Positions 22,110 to 33,683 of a DNA stretch of 38,742 bases are shown here, in pieces. Made by a program: the position numbers and the translations under genes. Origin of the DNA: an uncultured Acidobacteriota bacterium (lineage in GTDB: Bacteria > Acidobacteriota > UBA6911 > CAINFC01). Under the pieces are notes generated by a model that was not told the origin of the DNA, searched no databases, and saw nothing but the letters and a program-made list of their open reading frames with translations. The stretch is taken from the NCBI GenBank assembly GCA_903847975.1, contig CAINFC010000231.1, positions 1 to 38,742 of the forward strand, given 5' to 3'. How positions within the stretch are numbered: position 1 is the first letter of the stretch; each line of letters begins with the position of its first letter.

Positions 22110-24065
22110 TCAGTACAGCTTTTTCGGAGTCTCGTGCGTGTCGGCTCTCTGGCTCATGTGCTCGATGGCCTCCGTTTCGAAGCGGTGCTCGGCTTCCTCC
22201 GCGGTGATATAGCCGGTCAGCCAGGAGGTGTTCATGGGGTATTCGGCCGGATGCCAGATGGTCTGGAACCCGTGCCAGATCAAAATGGCCAGCGCCGCCA
22301 GGACCGCCTCGTAGAAATGGATGATCCGGGCCACGTTGATCACCCAGGGGGGCCAGCTGCCGGGAATCATCTTGGGAAACCACAGGATAATCCCAGAGAC
22401 GACCATCACGATCGTCCCCCACGCCAAGGCCCAGAACTCGAACTTTTCCGCGAAGCTGAAAATTCCGCTGCGCGGGGATTCCTTTTCCAGGCCGCAATAG
22501 AACCGGAGGTGATACCAGAATTCCTTGAAGTCGCGCCATCCCGGGATGAACTCCACCAGCATGATCCGGCCCCGTTTTTCCAAAAGCATGTAGAATCCGA
22601 ATACCACGACATCCACGGTCATCAGAACCGCGGAGGAGCGGTGGATCAGGGCCCGCACCCGTTCGGTCATGCCGATGGAAAAGAGCCACTGCACCCAGAA
22701 GGCGTCCGGGTACTTCAGGGCGAATCCGGTGACCGTCAGGGTGGTGAAGGTGATGAAGAGAATGAAGTGGCACACCACCTCGAAGGGGGTGAGGCGGTTG
22801 ATGTGCTTGTGGGTCAGCTGTTCGCGGTATTTGCAGCGCACCGCCCAGAACCAGATGAGCCCGTTGTAGGCCAGCATGCCGCCCACGCTGACCACGATCA
22901 GCAGGACGTAAATCAGGCTGATGATGTCTTCCAGCTTCTTGCCGGGATAATCGAGAGCCGCTTTGTGGGAAAAGCTGCGGGCGAAGCTATCGCTGACCTG
23001 CCCGTGGCACTGGCCGCAGGCCGCCCCGCGGTTGGAGATATGCATCCGCGACTGCTCGTGGTCGGAGGGTAGGGAGTTGTGGGCATCGTGGCAGTCGGCG
23101 CAGGTGGCGCTGGCGCCCAGCGTGCCGCGCTGGGTCAGGCCGTGGAAGTCCTTCATGTAGCTGTCCACCGGGGCGGTATCCAGGCCGTAGCGAACCATCA
23201 TCCGGTAGTTGCCGTGGCACCAGACGCAGACCTGGGTGGCGGCCCACTGCTTGGAATCGCCGACCCGGCTGCGCAGGGAGGTCATGTCGTGATCGCCGTG
23301 GCAGGTAGTGCAGGTGGGGCTGTCATGGCTGCCGTTGATCAGGGAAAGCCCGTGGGGGCCCTTGTTGAAATGCTGCACCTCGTCGGGATGGCACTTGTTG
23401 CAGACGTTGGCCACCCCGGTAATGGAAACGGTGGAGTCCGACCGGGAGGAGGGAAGAATGGTATGAAAACCGTGGCAGTCGGTGCAGGTGGCGCCTTTTT
23501 TCTTCTCGGTCACCGCCCGCCAGTGAACGCTGGCGGTATAACGGGTAATCAGGTTGCGCTTGAATATGCCCTCCTCCTCGTTGAGCTTTTCGCTGCCATG
23601 GCATTTTCCGCAGGTCTGCGGCTGCTTGTCGCGCGACATGACCGATTCCGGGGAGGAAACAGGCAGAATATTGTGGCCGCCATGGCAGTCGTTGCAGTAG
23701 GGCGCCCGGGGGTTTTTGGTCCGGTATCCATACCCGTGAATGTCCTTCTCCCGATACAGTTTGTCTTCGTCGGTATGGCACTCGGCGCAGCGCAGGGTCA
23801 TCGGCGTCGTGGCGTGCGGGACATCCTCAAACGTTTTGGCTCCGCCGTGGCAGTCGGTGCAGGACATTCCTGCATGGGCGGATTCCCCCAGCACTTTGGC
23901 GTCCACGAAAAGGGTCAGTTTCTTGCCGCGGTCGGTCACCGCCTCCAGGTCTTTTTCTCCGTGGCAGCGCAGACAGTCTTCGTTTTTCATTTCGTTTTTG
24001 GGCTGGGCAGAAACCGCCGGCGCAACCAGGCACAAAGCAACCAAAGGTATAAATAATGGCTTCAT
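22110..24065 (-). CDS. Undecahaem c-type cytochrome fused to a b-type cytochrome membrane domain
   Basis: 651 aa. A cleavable signal peptide (MKPLFIPLVALCLVAPAVSA) is followed by 11 CxxCH haem motifs between C31 and H354 (first CLRCH, last CGQCH), then a membrane domain from about residue 375 with five helices. Helix histidines such as HFILFITFT, IHRSSAVLM and IIHFYEAVLAALAILIWHGF could ligate two b haems as in the cytochrome b561/formate-dehydrogenase gamma family. It would pass electrons between the quinone pool and periplasmic haems. AGGAG precedes the start. It diverges from the HybA-like/NrfD-fusion operon across a 198-bp gap, so the products probably work together. Confidence 0.88.
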   Translation of the reverse strand: MKPLFIPLVALCLVAPAVSAQPKNEMKNEDCLRCHGEKDLEAVTDRGKKLTLFVDAKVLGESAHAGMSCTDCHGGAKTFEDVPHATTPMTLRCAECHTDEDKLYREKDIHGYGYRTKNPRAPYCNDCHGGHNILPVSSPESVMSRDKQPQTCGKCHGSEKLNEEEGIFKRNLITRYTASVHWRAVTEKKKGATCTDCHGFHTILPSSRSDSTVSITGVANVCNKCHPDEVQHFNKGPHGLSLINGSHDSPTCTTCHGDHDMTSLRSRVGDSKQWAATQVCVWCHGNYRMMVRYGLDTAPVDSYMKDFHGLTQRGTLGASATCADCHDAHNSLPSDHEQSRMHISNRGAACGQCHGQVSDSFARSFSHKAALDYPGKKLEDIISLIYVLLIVVSVGGMLAYNGLIWFWAVRCKYREQLTHKHINRLTPFEVVCHFILFITFTTLTVTGFALKYPDAFWVQWLFSIGMTERVRALIHRSSAVLMTVDVVVFGFYMLLEKRGRIMLVEFIPGWRDFKEFWYHLRFYCGLEKESPRSGIFSFAEKFEFWALAWGTIVMVVSGIILWFPKMIPGSWPPWVINVARIIHFYEAVLAALAILIWHGFQTIWHPAEYPMNTSWLTGYITAEEAEHRFETEAIEHMSQRADTHETPKKLY

Positions 24066-24263: not shown

Positions 24264-25238
24264 ATGAGTTTCGATCGAAGAGATTTTTTCAGGGCGGCTT
24301 TGGCTGCCGGGGGTGCCGGTACGGCTACTCTGCTGGCGGCCGAACCGGAGCCTGCCAAAGAAGAGACCGCGGAACCGAACCATGTCGGCTGCCTGGTGGA
24401 TACGACCTTGTGCATCGGGTGCCGGCAATGCGAATCGGCCTGCAATACGCGTAATAAGCTGCCGAAAAGTACCATCAATTTTGCCGACCGGACCATTTTC
24501 CGTAGCGAGCGTCGCCCTTCCGAGACCGCCTTTACGGTTGTCAATGAATTTCCGGGGAGCCCTTCTCCGGATCAGGGAAACGTGAAGGAAACGTTTGTGA
24601 AGGTGCAGTGCATGCACTGCCTGACTCCATCCTGCGTTTCGGCCTGCATCGTTGGAGCCCTGACCAAAGCCAGCGACGGATCCATCGTCTACAATCCGGA
24701 TATCTGCCTCGGATGCCGGTATTGCCAGGTTTCCTGCCCCTTCGAGATTCCGGCCTATGAGTTCGACGAGCCGCTTACTCCCAGGGTCCGCAAGTGCGAA
24801 TTCTGCACCGACCGCCAGAAGGGAATCGGGGCCAACCCGGCCTGCGCCGCCTCCTGCCCCACCGAAGCTCTGGTGTTCGGCAAGAGGGCGGAGCTGATTC
24901 ACCTGGCACGGGACCGCATGGCCAAGCGCCCGGACCGCTATACGGAAACGATCTACGGTGAAAAGGAGGTGGGCGGAACTTCCTGGCTCTACCTGACCGG
25001 CCGGCCCTATACGGAAGTCGGCCTGCTGAAGCTGCAGGAAACGGCTCCGGCCCTGCGAACCGAGGCGATCCAGCACGGGATTTTCAAGTACGGATTTTTC
25101 CCGATCGCCTTTTACGGGCTGCTGAGCGGAATCATGTGGTTCAACAACCGCAAGGAAAACCCGGATTCCGGCCATGGTCCATCGGATAGCCATACATCAC
25201 AGGCCTCCGCACAGGACGGGAAAGGAGGCCGGTCATGA
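24264..25238 (+). CDS. HybA-like four-cluster ferredoxin with Tat signal and C-terminal membrane anchor
   Basis: 324 aa from ATG 24264 (GGGGG just upstream). The Tat signal MSFDRRDFFRAALAAGGAG is followed by four cysteine groups: CIGCRQCESAC (C50-C60), CMHCLTPSCVSAC, CLGCRYCQVSCP, and CEFC paired with CAASCP. These give 16 cysteines for four [4Fe-4S] clusters. A C-terminal hydrophobic segment (FFPIAFYGLLSGIMWF) anchors it, as in HybA. Its stop overlaps the NrfD-fusion start (ATGA). By family analogy it relays electrons between the NrfD-type quinone site and periplasmic haems. Confidence 0.9.
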   Translation: MSFDRRDFFRAALAAGGAGTATLLAAEPEPAKEETAEPNHVGCLVDTTLCIGCRQCESACNTRNKLPKSTINFADRTIFRSERRPSETAFTVVNEFPGSPSPDQGNVKETFVKVQCMHCLTPSCVSACIVGALTKASDGSIVYNPDICLGCRYCQVSCPFEIPAYEFDEPLTPRVRKCEFCTDRQKGIGANPACAASCPTEALVFGKRAELIHLARDRMAKRPDRYTETIYGEKEVGGTSWLYLTGRPYTEVGLLKLQETAPALRTEAIQHGIFKYGFFPIAFYGLLSGIMWFNNRKENPDSGHGPSDSHTSQASAQDGKGGRS

Positions 25239-28200
25239 AGCACGAGGGATATCATCGGGTGGAAAAGCCGTTTTTCACCTTCGGGACCATGACGATTCTA
25301 ATCTTTATGGTCATCGGATTCGCCTTCGGTTTGACCCGGCTGCTCCTGGGCCTGGGAAATGTCACCAACCTGGACAACCACAACCCCTGGGGAATCTGGA
25401 TCTCCTTTGACGTGGCCTGCGGAGTAGCCCTGGCTGCCGGCGGCTTTACCACCGCCGCCCTGGTGGATATTTTCGGAAGAAAGCAATACCATGCCTTGCT
25501 GCGGCCGGCCATCCTGACGGCATTCCTGGGTTATCTCTGGGTGGCCATTGCCCTCAGCTTCGACCTGGGGCGCTACTGGAACATCTGGCGGCCCATCTTC
25601 AACTGGCAGGGCAACTCGGTGCTGTTCGAAGTGGGCATGTGCGTCACGTTCTATCTCATGGTGCTGAGCGTCGAAATGTCGCCGCCGATCCTGGAAGGAC
25701 TGAAGCACCGCCTGGCTCACAACGAGCCCGGGGCCTGGCTGCTGCGCAAGTTTGAAGGGCCCATCTACACCCTGCACTCCTGGGTAAAGGTGATCCTGCC
25801 TATTTTTATCGTTGCCGGGGTCGTTCTTTCCTTCATGCACCAGTCCTCCCTCGGGACCCTGATGCTCATCTCCCCGACCAAAACCAGCACCCTCTGGAAT
25901 ACCTCAATCCTGCCGGTCCTGTTCCTTCTTTCGGCGATCATGGTCGGATTCCCGATGGTTATTCTGGAGTCGATCTACGCCAGCATCAGCTTCGGCCGCG
26001 ATCCGGAAATGGAGCTGCTCTCCCCGCTGGCCGCCAAGATTCCCACCTTCATCGGCATATACGGCCTGGTCAAGTTCGGGGACCTGGCTTTCCGCTGGAA
26101 TCAGCTGGACTTCGTGGTGCATCCGGCGGGAACGGTGTCCCTGGTGATCGAGCTGCTGATGGGCATCGTGGTCCCCTTCGTGCTGCTCAACATCAAAGCG
26201 GTGCGGAGGTCGGTCGGGTGGCTCTTCTTTTCCATCATGCTGGTCATCTTCGGGGTGATCCTCAACCGCATCAACGTTTTTCTGGTCGGCTACAATCCGC
26301 CCTACACCACCAAGTTCTATTTTCCATCGGTGGGTGAAATCGCGCTGACGGTGGCCATCGTCTGCAGCATCATGTTCTGCTACCGGATTTTTGTCACCTT
26401 TTTCCCGGTGCTGCCCGGTTTCCAGCCGGAGCAGGAGGAGAGGGAGATCCAGGAGAGGGAAAAGACCGTATCCCCCTTCTGGACCTGGGTTATCCGGGGA
26501 ACCGCCCTGGGGTTCGTTCTGGTTTTCGTTCTGCTCTATACCGTGGTTCACCGGCAGGCGATCTCCGAATCGTTCAAGGCATACCGCGACGTGCAGATTG
26601 TCCGCAACAAAAAGCTGGTGCTGCAGCCGCGCATCGCTGCCTCTCATGCCTTCCGGCCGGAAGGTTACAAAAATGTCTATTTGCTGAGCAGCCCGCTGGT
26701 CAACGACAAGTCGGACAGCTACGAGCCGGTACGCTTCAGCCACCGTTCCCATGACGTGAACACCGGCGGGGACTGCGGAGTCTGCCACCACCGCTTCGCC
26801 ATGAGCAAGGACGACAAAATCGGCGAGGACATCACCAAAATGCACCTGGGGATCGAGGTGCGCATCGGCGGAGCCTGCAGCTCCTGTCATAACATGACGG
26901 AGAAAAAGCCGCAGAGCTGCCACGAGTGCCATACCTTGCCAAACGAGGCAGACAACCCCGGGCGGATCGGCCTGAAAGGCGCCTATCACCGGCAGTGTAT
27001 TGGATGCCATCAGCGTCTGCCGGCTACCGCCTATGCCCCGACCGACTGCATTTCCTGCCACCACCCGCAGACGCCGGATCACGGCTCCCTGGTGGCGGCC
27101 ATACCCGGCGGCGCCGATCCCCGGGCGGTTACCGCGGATTGCATCCGCTGCCACGAAACTTCCGCCCAGGATATCCTGAAAACGGCTCACTGGAACTGGA
27201 AAGGGAAGACCCCCGATATCGCCGGCCACGAGCACAGCACCAGCCTGGGATTCATCAACACCGTGGACAACTATTACCTGAGCGTCGGTGCCAACATCGA
27301 GGAGTTCAGCAACATCCATATCGGCTACGGGCGGATCGACGGCAGTTTCAATTTCAAGGATCCGAAGTCCATCGACTGCCTGATCTGCCATGACACGACC
27401 GGCACCTATAAGCGGGAAAAGGGATCCGTGGGAATGCCTGCCGCCGACTCCAATCTGGCTTCCGCGGCCCGGGCGGTGGGCCGTCCCTCCCGTTCCAACT
27501 GCGGTTCCTGCCACTTTTATACGGGCGGCGGCCCCAATGCCAAGCACGGGGACCTGGAACCATTCCTGGCTCGCCCCACTCCGGAGCAGGATGTCCACAT
27601 GGGAATGATGGATATGCGCTGCCAGGACTGCCATCGCACCGAAAAGCATGCGGTGGCCGGGCTGGCTTTCGCAGCCCCGGTGGTGGAAGGACGGGTTTTC
27701 TGTGAAAAGTGCCACAGCGAGCGGCCGCACGGAATTACCGGACCTCTGAGCCGGCACCTGGACAGCCACGTCAAGGCGCTGGCCTGCGAAACCTGCCACA
27801 TTCCGCAGATTGCCCGCCAGTATCCGACCCGCCTGACCACCGATTTTTCCCAGGCCGGCAAGGATCTGCCCTCTGCCAAGGACGCCAACGGCATGCCCAC
27901 CTTCGACAAATCGTGGGGGGCGATGACCTGGGGCAAAGATATTCCTCCGGTATACCGCTGGTTCAAGGGGGAGAGGGAGTCGCGCATGGTCGGGGAGAAA
28001 ATCCAGCCCAGCGAGACGGTGGCGCTCAACGCGCCGCTCGGGGAGCGGCAGAATCCGGAGTCGCGCATTTACCCGTTCAAAATCCACACCGCGGTCATTC
28101 CCTATGACTCGGGCAGCAACACCCTGGCTGCGCCGCTTCTTTGGGGGAGCTTCCTGAAGGACTTCAACTGGACCACGGCGGTGGCCGACGGCATGAAGCG

Positions 28201-28504
28201 GCTGGAGCAGCCGTTCTCCGGGAAGGTCGGCTTCGTCAAGACCGAAATGTATTCCGGGATTCACCACGGCGTATTCCGGGCCAAGCAGTCGCTGGGCTGC
28301 GCCGATTGCCACAAGGTAGAGGCCATCAGCTGCCGGCGCTGCCACAAGGACGCCGCGACCATGGAGCAGCCGGAGCATACCCGCATGGTCTACCCGCAGG
28401 TCAAGAACCGCCTGGACTACCAGGCGCTCGGCTACAAGGATGATCCCGCGGTCATCGGCGGGCGCTTTTACATCTACGTGGGCCGCGGCCGTCCGCCGCA
28501 ATAG
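25235..28504 (+). CDS. NrfD/HybB-type quinone-site membrane protein fused to a 13-CxxCH multihaem cytochrome c
   Basis: 1089 aa. Residues about 1-390 have ten or so helices of the NrfD/HybB/HmcC family (for example NPWGIWISFDVACGVALAAGGF). One more helix near 415-440 leads into the periplasm. Residues about 505-625 hold five CxxCH motifs with FSHRSH and AYHRQCIGCH, resembling a class III (c3/c7) cytochrome. From about 640 the sequence resembles octahaem tetrathionate-reductase-family cytochromes: IDCLICHDTTGTYK, CGSCHFYTGGG, KHGDLEP, CETCHIPQIAR, YRWFKGE, PFKIHTA. There are 13 motifs (first C514, last CRRCH at 1033-1037). Where the family has a CxxCH before IGYG, this protein has FSNIH (691-695). 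It probably links quinones to periplasmic electron transfer. Confidence 0.87.
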   Translation: MKHEGYHRVEKPFFTFGTMTILIFMVIGFAFGLTRLLLGLGNVTNLDNHNPWGIWISFDVACGVALAAGGFTTAALVDIFGRKQYHALLRPAILTAFLGYLWVAIALSFDLGRYWNIWRPIFNWQGNSVLFEVGMCVTFYLMVLSVEMSPPILEGLKHRLAHNEPGAWLLRKFEGPIYTLHSWVKVILPIFIVAGVVLSFMHQSSLGTLMLISPTKTSTLWNTSILPVLFLLSAIMVGFPMVILESIYASISFGRDPEMELLSPLAAKIPTFIGIYGLVKFGDLAFRWNQLDFVVHPAGTVSLVIELLMGIVVPFVLLNIKAVRRSVGWLFFSIMLVIFGVILNRINVFLVGYNPPYTTKFYFPSVGEIALTVAIVCSIMFCYRIFVTFFPVLPGFQPEQEEREIQEREKTVSPFWTWVIRGTALGFVLVFVLLYTVVHRQAISESFKAYRDVQIVRNKKLVLQPRIAASHAFRPEGYKNVYLLSSPLVNDKSDSYEPVRFSHRSHDVNTGGDCGVCHHRFAMSKDDKIGEDITKMHLGIEVRIGGACSSCHNMTEKKPQSCHECHTLPNEADNPGRIGLKGAYHRQCIGCHQRLPATAYAPTDCISCHHPQTPDHGSLVAAIPGGADPRAVTADCIRCHETSAQDILKTAHWNWKGKTPDIAGHEHSTSLGFINTVDNYYLSVGANIEEFSNIHIGYGRIDGSFNFKDPKSIDCLICHDTTGTYKREKGSVGMPAADSNLASAARAVGRPSRSNCGSCHFYTGGGPNAKHGDLEPFLARPTPEQDVHMGMMDMRCQDCHRTEKHAVAGLAFAAPVVEGRVFCEKCHSERPHGITGPLSRHLDSHVKALACETCHIPQIARQYPTRLTTDFSQAGKDLPSAKDANGMPTFDKSWGAMTWGKDIPPVYRWFKGERESRMVGEKIQPSETVALNAPLGERQNPESRIYPFKIHTAVIPYDSGSNTLAAPLLWGSFLKDFNWTTAVADGMKRLEQPFSGKVGFVKTEMYSGIHHGVFRAKQSLGCADCHKVEAISCRRCHKDAATMEQPEHTRMVYPQVKNRLDYQALGYKDDPAVIGGRFYIYVGRGRPPQ

Positions 28505-28962: not shown

Positions 28963-29544
28963 ATGAGAAAGCTTTGGATATGTTCCACGTTTGTGTTGCC
29001 TTTGGTGTTCGCCGTCATGAGGACCTATGCGGAGGATCCCGTGGATTACAAGGTCGTGGCTACCACAAAAACATCGACCAGCGAAAAGGAGATGAACCAG
29101 GCGGCGGATGCGGGATTTCGCTTCGGCGGCGTCATGGGCGGAGAGACCAGCTTCGGAGGCTCCGAGGTCGTCGCCATCCTTTATCGGAACCCGGGCGCGG
29201 AACCCGGCCGCTACCGCTATAAATTGCTGGCCACCAGCAAAACCTCCACGATGCAGAAAGAGATGCAGGAAGCGGGGGATGCCGGATACGAATACAAAGG
29301 GCAAACCGTTTTCCAGTCCACTTTCGGCGGCAAGGAAGTGGTCGTGATTTTGGAGCGGGACAACAGCGTGAAAACCCCGGCCATGTATGAATACAGGCTG
29401 CTGGCGACGAAAAAGACCTCCACGATGCAAAAGGAACTGACGGAGGCGGGTGCGGGCGGATTTCAATTTGTAGGGGTGACGGTTGCCGAAACGGCCATGG
29501 GCGGGGCTGAAATCGTGTCTATTTTGAGAAGGCTGAAAAATTAA
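28963..29544 (+). CDS. Secreted protein made of three tandem 55-60-residue repeats
   Basis: 193 aa, with GGGAGG about 6 bases before ATG. An N-terminal signal peptide (MRKLWICSTFVLPLVFAVM...YAE) is followed by three repeats of the pattern Y-x-Y-(K/R)-L-L-A-T-x-K-T-S-T-x-x-K-E-(M/L)-x-x-A-G-x-x-G-(Y/F), then a middle part (F/V-GG-x-E-V-V) and an end like VVVILER/VSILRR. The repeat has the alternating beta-alpha-beta look of a small ferredoxin-like or DUF4177-like unit, but I do not recognise the family. No catalytic motif is visible. It is probably periplasmic or extracellular. It sits alone, convergent with the hydrolase gene. Confidence 0.78.
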   Translation: MRKLWICSTFVLPLVFAVMRTYAEDPVDYKVVATTKTSTSEKEMNQAADAGFRFGGVMGGETSFGGSEVVAILYRNPGAEPGRYRYKLLATSKTSTMQKEMQEAGDAGYEYKGQTVFQSTFGGKEVVVILERDNSVKTPAMYEYRLLATKKTSTMQKELTEAGAGGFQFVGVTVAETAMGGAEIVSILRRLKN

Positions 29545-31040: not shown

Positions 31041-31703
31041 CTACAGTTTCAATCCGAAAATGCCGGCGGCGATATCCTGCTCCAGGGCGATCTGCGTGTT
31101 GTCGATCTGGATGATGTAGGCCGGGAACTTTTGCCGGATCTTCAGGCGCTTGCCGGGGGAAACGCCGAAGGAAACCAGCTTGCCCACCAGCACCGGGTCG
31201 CTCTTGCGTATGAAGGTGATCCGGATCTCGTCGCCGATGGAAAGGGCATCGAGCGACTTGACGAAGGTTTTTACCGAGCTTTCCGCCCGGCGGCAGCAGT
31301 CCCCTTCCGGAATCGGGGAGCCGTGCGGGCACTCTCGGGGGTGGCCGAGCAGAGTGCAGATGGCTTCCGTCAATCCGGGAGCCAGGGTGTGCTCGTATTC
31401 GCAGGCCGATTCCTCCATCTCCTCGAAAGTCATTCCCAGAACGTCCACCAGGAGCCGTTCGGCCAGCCGGTGCCGGCGGATAATCGGCATAGCCTGCGCC
31501 CGGCCCTCTTCGGTCAAGGAAATATCCGAACCGGCAAAGTGGATCAGTCCGCTTTTTTCCAGGCCGCCGAGCACCTCGTCGTCGACCACGTACCCCGCCG
31601 AGCCCGCGTGGGCGCTCTTTACCATCTCCCGGGTGCAGCTCCCTTTCTCCAGCAGGGTCCACACGGTCTCGATCACTTCATCGGCAATATGTACGATCTT
31701 CAT
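31041..31703 (-). CDS. DtxR/MntR-family metal-dependent regulator with C-terminal FeoA (SH3-like) domain
   Basis: 220 aa, with AAGGAGG 5 bases before ATG. The N-terminal winged helix (residues about 1-65) is followed by the metal-binding/dimerisation region RRHRLAERLLVDVLGM and ESACEYEHTLAPGL, the H-x-x-x-E-x-x-x and C/H-E-x-E-H ligands typical of DtxR proteins, then HPRECPHGSPIP. The last 75 residues form a FeoA domain (SLDALSIGDEIRITFIRKSD...VLVGKLVSFGVSPGKRLKI). It should sense Fe2+ or Mn2+ and repress iron uptake. It lies 18 bp downstream of feoB, with no separate feoA in view, so the FeoA part may also serve FeoB. Confidence 0.9.
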   Translation of the reverse strand: MKIVHIADEVIETVWTLLEKGSCTREMVKSAHAGSAGYVVDDEVLGGLEKSGLIHFAGSDISLTEEGRAQAMPIIRRHRLAERLLVDVLGMTFEEMEESACEYEHTLAPGLTEAICTLLGHPRECPHGSPIPEGDCCRRAESSVKTFVKSLDALSIGDEIRITFIRKSDPVLVGKLVSFGVSPGKRLKIRQKFPAYIIQIDNTQIALEQDIAAGIFGLKL

Positions 31704-31721
31704 TTTTCCCTCCTTCTGAAA

Positions 31722-33683
31722 TCAAAATTCGAAACGGCCCCAATGCAAAAGAAAGTTCATAACCACCCCGGTCGACAGGGCGGCCGCGGTCACCAGGGCG
31801 AGAATGGCCAATGCCTTCCGTGTTCCGAGCTCCTTGACGATCAGCATGAAATTGGTTACGCAGGGGGCGAAGAGGATGGTGACGATCATGGCTACCACCA
31901 GCTGCCGGTGGTCCATGACGCCGCTGTCCACCATGCGGCTGAGCACGGCGATGCCCGCCTCTCCGCGGATGAAGCCCATCAGCAGCGATTCCGCAAACTG
32001 CGGCGGCAGCCCCAGCCCGCCGCGGATGACCGGGGCGGCCAATTCCTCCGCCCAGGAGAGAAAGCCGATTTTCGCCAGGGAAAAAAGCCCCAGGGCGCTG
32101 ATCAGGAAAAGCGGGAGCGATTCGCGAAGAAAAATCCAGGAGCGGTAAAAGGTTCTCTGCAGCACATTCTTCAGGCTGGGAATCCGTATGGCCGGGATTT
32201 CCATGAGGAAATGCGACGGCTCGGCGGGCATCCAGCGGTTCAGCATCACGCCCGCCAGGACCGTCAGCAGGAAGACCACCCCGAACACGGTCAGGAAGGC
32301 GGCAAAGCCGACCCGGGCCAGGATGACCAGGATCAGGCTCAGCTTGGCCGAACAGGGAACACCCAGGCTCAGAAGGAAAATGGCAATGAAGCGTTCGCGC
32401 CGGCTGTCGAGCACCCGGGTGGACATGGTGGCGGTGGTCACGCAGGAAAAGCCGAGCATGATCGGCAGGACCGCTTTGCCGTTGAGCCCCACGCGCCGGA
32501 ACAGCCGGTCCAGAAGAACGGAAAGCCGGGAGATGTAGCCGGAATCCTCGATCATCCCGAAAGAGAAGTAAAAGAAGGTGACCACCGGCAGTACCAGACC
32601 GAGAACCGGGACAATCGCCATGGGATAAAGACCATACGGGCCGAGGGCGATCTCCTGCAGAAATGCCCACGGAATCCCTTCCGCCAGCCGCTCGAGCAGC
32701 GGGCTGACCCCTTCGCCGAAAAACCGGTTGACCAGCAGGTCGACCAGCAATCCGGCGGCCAGCCGGCCGATGGCGAAATAGAGCAGCGCCAGGACGAGAA
32801 AAAGGGTGAGGGACCCGGCTACCGGCGTCAGTGCCATGTCTCCCAGCCGGTTGAGCCAGGGTGTGGAGCTGACCGGGCTCTGTTCCGCCGAATCCCGGGC
32901 CAGCGATTCCGCCCAACCCTCGTGCGCCAGGGAGCAGACCAGCGACAGCGGGCGGTAGAACGGGCGGCCTGTCTCCTCGATGATCTGCCGGGCGGCGGAG
33001 TAGTCTTGGATCTCCGCTTTCTGCAGTGTCCAGCGGGAGGTTTCTTCGTCCCCGGTCAGGGCCAGCAGCGCCAGGCCCCGGCGCGCGCCCGCTGGCATCG
33101 CCGGGGAGGCCATGAGCCCGGCCAGGTCCTCAACCGACTTGCCGATCTTATCCGGCAGCCGGGAGCGGAGCGAGGGCGCTTTCCGCTGAGGCAGGGCGGA
33201 AAGCAGCGCCGCCGTACCGATTCCCTCCGCCGCCACCGTTTCGATGACCGGGATACCCAGTGCCGCTTCCAGGCGCTGCCTCCGGATGCGGATCCCTTTC
33301 TGCGCCGCTTCGTCGGCCATGTTGGCCACCAGGATCATCGGCAGTCGGAATTCGGCCAGCAGTGCGGTCAGGACGAGGGATCGTTTCAGGTTCTTGGCGT
33401 CGGCCACCTGGATCACCAGGTCGGGGGCTTCCTCCACGAGGAGGCTGCGGGCGACCTTTTCGCTGTCGGCATTGGTAGAAAGGCCGTAAATGCCAGGCAT
33501 GTCAACGATTTCGACCTCCTGCCCTTCCAGCCGGAGATTCCCCCGCTGCACCTCCGCGGTGGAATCGGGGAAAGCGCTGACCCGGCCCCCGCGGTGGACC
33601 AGGCGGCGGAAAAGGGTGCTTTTGCCGGTGTTCGGCAATCCGATCAGCAGGATCCTCTTCCAATGACGTTTTTCCGGGGCCAT
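31722..33683 (-). CDS. feoB: Ferrous iron transport protein B
   Basis: 653 aa, short for the family (usually 700-780). The N-terminal G-domain has the P-loop GLPNTGKST (residues 15-23), a G2 threonine near 42 in PDSTAEV, G3 DMPG (61-64) and a G4-like VANMAD. A helical stalk follows, then the membrane domain with Gate motifs: VLPIMLGFSCVTTATMSTRVLDSRRERFIAIFLL and VPCSAKLSLIL. These show the conserved cysteines thought to line the iron path. It imports Fe2+ across the inner membrane. No Shine-Dalgarno precedes ATG 33683, but an extended -10 lies 8 bases before it, so the transcript may be leaderless. Confidence 0.93.
   Translation of the reverse strand: MAPEKRHWKRILLIGLPNTGKSTLFRRLVHRGGRVSAFPDSTAEVQRGNLRLEGQEVEIVDMPGIYGLSTNADSEKVARSLLVEEAPDLVIQVADAKNLKRSLVLTALLAEFRLPMILVANMADEAAQKGIRIRRQRLEAALGIPVIETVAAEGIGTAALLSALPQRKAPSLRSRLPDKIGKSVEDLAGLMASPAMPAGARRGLALLALTGDEETSRWTLQKAEIQDYSAARQIIEETGRPFYRPLSLVCSLAHEGWAESLARDSAEQSPVSSTPWLNRLGDMALTPVAGSLTLFLVLALLYFAIGRLAAGLLVDLLVNRFFGEGVSPLLERLAEGIPWAFLQEIALGPYGLYPMAIVPVLGLVLPVVTFFYFSFGMIEDSGYISRLSVLLDRLFRRVGLNGKAVLPIMLGFSCVTTATMSTRVLDSRRERFIAIFLLSLGVPCSAKLSLILVILARVGFAAFLTVFGVVFLLTVLAGVMLNRWMPAEPSHFLMEIPAIRIPSLKNVLQRTFYRSWIFLRESLPLFLISALGLFSLAKIGFLSWAEELAAPVIRGGLGLPPQFAESLLMGFIRGEAGIAVLSRMVDSGVMDHRQLVVAMIVTILFAPCVTNFMLIVKELGTRKALAILALVTAAALSTGVVMNFLLHWGRFEF

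Follow-up and report, generated by a model that had tools for sequence, protein, structure and literature searches.

The Hmc and Nhc complexes of sulphate reducers combine an HmcB-like Fe-S protein, an HmcC-like membrane protein of the NrfD family and a c3-type cytochrome of the HmcA or nine-haem kind. An NrfD protein, a four-cluster Fe-S protein and a multihaem reductase are brought together by the same logic in MccACD (octahaem sulphite reductase) and NrfABCD (nitrite reductase), where the reductase is a separate subunit of a different haem family (PMC8076601) and, in NrfA, contains a CxxCK motif (PMC12285233). In the octahaem tetrathionate reductase (OTR) of Shewanella, the haem of the second motif along the chain, haem II, is reported to be the catalytic one (PMC4484225), and the active-site haem of OTRs has a lysine ligand that lies outside any CxxCK motif (PMC12285233). 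Tetrathionate reduction reached 93 units per mg with a recombinant OTR-type protein of Beggiatoaceae (PMC6449678), and a link to tetrathionate has also been drawn for OTRs of Acidobacteriota (PMC8528874). Multihaem proteins with membrane-anchor domains, one of them with coordinates adjoining those of an OTR-related octahaem protein, occur in Carboxydothermus ferrireducens (PMC7829351) and are a partial precedent for the fusion presented here. In the openly accessible literature searched, no description of an NrfD-multihaem-OTR fusion was found.

The window is the whole 38,742-nt stretch CAINFC010000231.1, and the fusion that it encodes at 25235-28504 on the plus strand is referred to as the window protein or window copy. 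The parts of this fusion and the gene that precedes it are as follows.

24264-25238, plus strand: gene for a HybA/HmcB-like ferredoxin subunit (NCBIfam, Fer4_11, alignment with E. coli HybA).
25235-28504, plus strand: gene for the fusion of NrfD, c3-type pentahaem and OTR-like domains, 1089 residues, 13 CxxCH motifs.
25235-26416, plus strand: HybB/HmcC-type NrfD membrane domain, residues 1-394, about 10 predicted transmembrane helices (PF03916, PRK10881, HmcC).
26489-26545, plus strand: 11th hydrophobic helix, residues 419-437, past the end of HybB (hydropathy).
26726-27094, plus strand: c3-type segment, five CxxCH motifs at residues 514, 548, 562, 588 and 605 (Cytochrom_CIII, phmmer).
27116-28318, plus strand: OTR-like domain, residues 628-1028, seven of the eight OTR CxxCH motifs (TIGR04315, AlphaFold2, Foldseek).
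27305-27319, plus strand: lost haem-II site F691-S-N-I694-H695 (TTC AGC AAC ATC CAT), where relatives have CxxCH.
27542-27544, plus strand: Lys770 of the KHGD sequence, opposite residue 153 of the 1sp3 chain (alignment).
28331-28345, plus strand: extra C-terminal CRRCH, residues 1033-1037, past OTR haem VIII.

The initial annotation had described three domains in one 1089-residue chain and expected matches to NrfD PF03916, Cytochrom_CIII and TIGR04315; its coordinates and its count of 13 CxxCH motifs are exact, and profile searches recovered all three families far past chance. The open frame runs through 1089 codons with no interruption. Pfam and NCBIfam searches place NrfD PF03916 (E = 1.3e-17), HybB PRK10881 (E = 8.6e-92) and HmcC (E = 8.1e-81) on residues 6-394, at scores below the NCBIfam equivalog cut-offs for HmcC (272 of 550 bits) and HybB (308.5 of 450 bits). 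Class III cytochrome c follows at residues 547-609 (E = 4.2e-10), and phmmer matches this c3-type segment to the C-terminal c3 domains of the nine-haem cytochrome and HmcA. Residues 628-1029 match TIGR04315 with E = 5.5e-126 and 421.1 bits, above the curated cut-off of 375, and a phmmer search against solved structures relates the window protein to Shewanella OTR 1sp3 (E = 3.9e-93). The 13 motifs divide into five c3-type motifs, seven of the eight OTR motifs and one extra C-terminal motif, and every cysteine of the putatively periplasmic part sits in a CxxCH pair.

The fusion frame starts inside the last codons of the Fe-S gene with an exact 4-bp ATGA overlap, as had been noted for a HybA-like ferredoxin gene, and the product of that gene matches the profiles for HmcB (315 bits) and HybA (270.8 bits, cut-off 263) as well as Fer4_11. 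This subunit contains a twin-arginine signal (RRDFF), a C-terminal hydrophobic tail and 16 cysteines in four cluster motifs, for four predicted [4Fe-4S] clusters. All relatives whose sequence extends upstream have an HmcB/HybA-like Fe-S gene ahead of the fusion, and a search for a larger conserved operon at the fusion loci found that, beyond this gene, unrelated loci and families share no neighbour. Relative to Hmc and Nhc, the window protein has its cytochrome joined to the membrane subunit in one chain, with an OTR domain added, while no separate HmcA (16 haems), nine-haem cytochrome or HmcD/E/F adjoins the fusion. Relative to NrfABCD and MccACD, the OTR fold lies in the same chain, without a CxxCK or CX15CH haem site. 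The architecture is built from known families and would work in the manner of the Nhc, Hmc, Nrf and Mcc complexes; the OTR domain is new in this setting of NrfD, Fe-S and multihaem proteins.

Several neighbouring genes in the window can be described. A divergent gene at 22110-24065 (minus strand) encodes a 651-residue protein with 11 CxxCH motifs (c7/c3-type, DmsE-like) that ends in a cytochrome b561 domain; its relatives share 34-37% identity over nearly the full length, with matches in 38 of 60 genomes of the phylum, and it is a possible redox partner of the fusion. On the 3' side, 28963-29544 (plus strand) encodes a small protein that matches DUF4177 weakly and has a repeated segment containing 'KTST'; the related fusion loci do not share it. 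Farther away, at 31041-33683 (minus strand), FeoB adjoins a DtxR-like iron repressor bearing a FeoA domain. An Rfam search of the whole window gave zero matches.

Hydropathy peaks indicate about ten transmembrane helices in the NrfD domain, and alignment shows that D58, R89, Y99, D109, S129, E133, E148, H184 and R329 of E. coli HybB are identical, nine of nine, in the window protein (D59, R90, Y100, D110, S128, E132, E147, H202 and R345) and in six relatives. On the basis of mutants or models, a role in quinone binding, proton transfer or gating has been given to eight of these residues, all except E133 (PMC8076601; residue roles also in PMC6303296), and E133 lies four residues past the conserved serine, at the same spacing as S137 and E141 of NhcC (PMC8076601). 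The 11th helix at residues 419-437 is missing in E. coli HybB and is present in the relatives whose alignment covers the region. Ten-helix members of the family are placed with both ends inside by helix logic (PMC8076601), and for this reason the 11th helix would place the haem domains on the periplasmic side.

Is this fusion a genuine feature of the lineage? An artefact of assembly or sequencing might be suspected in a draft genome of 326 contigs. However, the same fusion is found in many independent assemblies, which rules out an assembly join as its origin, and an artefact behind either the fusion or the missing motif discussed below is extremely improbable. A scan of GTDB contigs with peptide patterns of the window protein, which favours close relatives, returned one fragment and five relatives whose alignments span 1027-1087 of the 1089 query residues (61-63% identity), every one from an Acidobacteriota MAG, in keeping with the phylum named in the initial annotation. 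The fusion is present in 13 of 396 sampled Acidobacteriota genomes (that of the window included), which represent seven families; it is essentially complete in one frame in ten of these and cut by contig ends in three, and full-length fusions in other Acidobacteriota assemblies are 47-63% identical to the window protein. In a tree of 34 OTR domains, in which some fused rows extended into the c3 segment, the fused OTRs group in a single clade (97/99) apart from stand-alone Acidobacteriota OTRs, and a single fusion event is therefore likely. These full-length relatives contradict the possibility, raised in the initial annotation, of a join between parts that homologues always encode separately. 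The parts are indeed encoded separately in some relatives, as NrfD-hexahaem proteins and stand-alone OTRs, but the fusion itself is conserved and probably of single origin. The NrfD-hexahaem proteins of other Acidobacteriota (L071, L077 and L078) share the HmcC-like domain, the extra helix, the c3-type haem motifs and the preceding HmcB-like gene, but at about 612 residues they stop after six haems, without an OTR domain, and look like a related stage. Their operons (L071:293-5152, L077 and L078) contain HmcF/DsrK-, HmcE- and HmcB-like genes followed by the 612-residue HmcC-hexahaem fusion; in L071 an OTR and b561 pair lies about 6 kb downstream.

Complete fused relatives have 14 haem motifs, comprising five c3-type, eight OTR and one C-terminal motif, the last being found in all fused relatives that reach that far. 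The window copy differs at the second OTR motif, where alignment to 1sp3 sets FSNIHIGYG of the window protein against CTSCHAGYG. The haem-II CxxC is missing only in the window copy and is kept in all others of the 34 OTR domains in the tree, with about 50 inspected overall, including the most divergent fused relative (L020, genome G148; 47% identity). An upstream cysteine, in the NNYC sequence kept in most relatives, is also replaced, by tyrosine. Since at least three substitutions over two codons (TTC and ATC, against TGC or TGT for cysteine) are required, without a frameshift, sequencing error was rejected at this site. A class-wide DNA search for a second copy lacking haem II yielded nothing beyond the fusions already known and two partial matches, both short; a fragment from genome G322 (L066), considered as such a copy, belongs to a divergent OTR that has a haem II of its own (CSKCHAG). 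The description of this region as octahaem reductase-like thus holds for its TIGR04315 score and fold but not for an intact octahaem site. Read from the sequence, the label 'octahaem' is misleading for the window copy, which appears OTR-like by fold and score and not an OTR by its catalytic haem.

Other elements of the site are retained. The motif histidine H695 is present, and K770 is invariant in 31 OTR rows; it is the equivalent of residue 153 of 1sp3, which we take to be the lysine that ligates the active-site haem; the count along the 1sp3 alignment agrees with this number. In L020, KLEA replaces KHGD, such that the lysine survives without the adjacent His-Gly-Asp. The initial annotation had also called for a structure prediction. 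A full-length AlphaFold2 model was discarded (mean pLDDT 38), and a model of the OTR domain built with 31 sequences reached a mean pLDDT of 74.6 and a pTM of 0.79. A Foldseek search with the latter gave 1sp3 as the sole significant PDB match (E = 2.8e-40, TM 0.80). The window OTR domain is thus homologous to that of Shewanella oneidensis over its whole length, with the same predicted fold and the lysine equivalent kept, and it differs in the NrfD and c3-type segments ahead of it, in the extra C-terminal haem motif and in the absence of the haem-II CxxC.

Among sites that are otherwise invariant in the fused proteins, the window copy is changed at 15 of 138 in the OTR part, against 5 of 240 across the NrfD domain, the linker and the c3 segment (Fisher p = 0.0005), a contrast that leaves out the divergent row L020; with L020 kept, the values are 7 of 103 and 5 of 212 (p = 0.06). 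We infer that the OTR changes may reflect a loosening of constraint near an active site that has been decommissioned, while the electron wire is kept. The same clustering could signify that the OTR part is a decaying remnant in a complex heading for loss, but the frame of 1089 codons is open, the remaining haem motifs, 13 in number, are maintained, as are the NrfD residues, and the predicted OTR fold is intact, which makes decay very improbable.

How would electrons move through such a protein? We propose, with a probability of about 0.5, that the two-gene complex is a self-contained quinone-periplasm oxidoreductase, in which the 14-haem relatives would act as quinol-driven reductases and the window copy as an electron conduit. 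The HybB/HmcC-type domain, together with the Fe-S subunit, would bind quinone or quinol near the periplasmic face, and the 11th helix would put the cytochrome part outside. Electrons could then pass between quinol or quinone at the NrfD domain, the Fe-S subunit, the five c3-type haems and the OTR-fold haem chain. Among the 14-haem relatives it would end at an intact OTR-type site, and these proteins most likely reduce tetrathionate, or else nitrite/hydroxylamine, at the expense of quinol. The window copy would no longer bind haem II, the catalytic haem, covalently, although its fold, its other OTR haems and the remainder of the complex persist, and it is therefore most likely that this copy works as a quinone:periplasmic-cytochrome oxidoreductase like Nhc or Hmc, handing electrons to another cytochrome or taking them from it. 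This agrees with the condensed quinone-to-periplasm complex proposed in the initial annotation, an idea that the analysis supports as a prediction. More tentatively, the lineage may have discarded the catalytic haem and kept the fold and wire, turning a fused terminal enzyme into a one-polypeptide quinone-to-periplasm conduit that would supply other cytochromes or draw electrons from them.

Some observations count against the conduit reading. Retention of Lys770 and H695 is one, since a site that was lost completely could do without them; others are that haem II is lost in one copy only and that the enrichment of OTR changes hinges on omitting L020. The window protein might still be a terminal reductase, using another haem such as the C-terminal one, or holding haem II without thioethers through H695 and K770, and the predicted fold is compatible with this. 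We regard it as improbable because both haem-II cysteines are gone, together with the conserved NNYC cysteine, and because the C-terminal haem motif coexists with haem II in relatives and hence is no replacement.

The direction of electron flow is a further consideration. The NrfD domain is nearest to HybB and HmcC, with the proton-path residues conserved, and a preference for reducing quinone has been suggested for the HybB/HmcC/QrcD clade (PMC6303296), so that quinol oxidation is not certain. Electrons could instead run from a periplasmic donor or cytochrome through the complex to quinone, as in HybB- and QrcD-containing complexes, and loss of the reductase haem would suit a non-reductase role. 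However, the intact fused relatives end in a reductase-type OTR site and no donor enzyme gene adjoins any fusion, and we consider reverse flow less likely.

The genome of the window also encodes a separate intact OTR (L072, contig C258) with eight haem motifs and a TIGR04315 score of 593 bits, followed by a PhsC-like cytochrome b561 and then a Sulf_transp/TsuA-like sulphur-transport protein. The reductase function could therefore be covered elsewhere in the same organism.

These findings carry a caution for annotation, as the window protein passes the TIGR04315 cut-off without active-site haem attachment, and the label 'tetrathionate reductase' is therefore probably wrong for it. The 14-haem relatives and the 13-haem window form provide a natural test of haem II as the site of reduction, and the same comparison bears on the direction in which HybB/HmcC-type modules work. 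More broadly, a modular respiratory complex has here been cut down to two polypeptides, such that quinone-to-multihaem electron transfer would be open to structural and electrochemical study within one protein.
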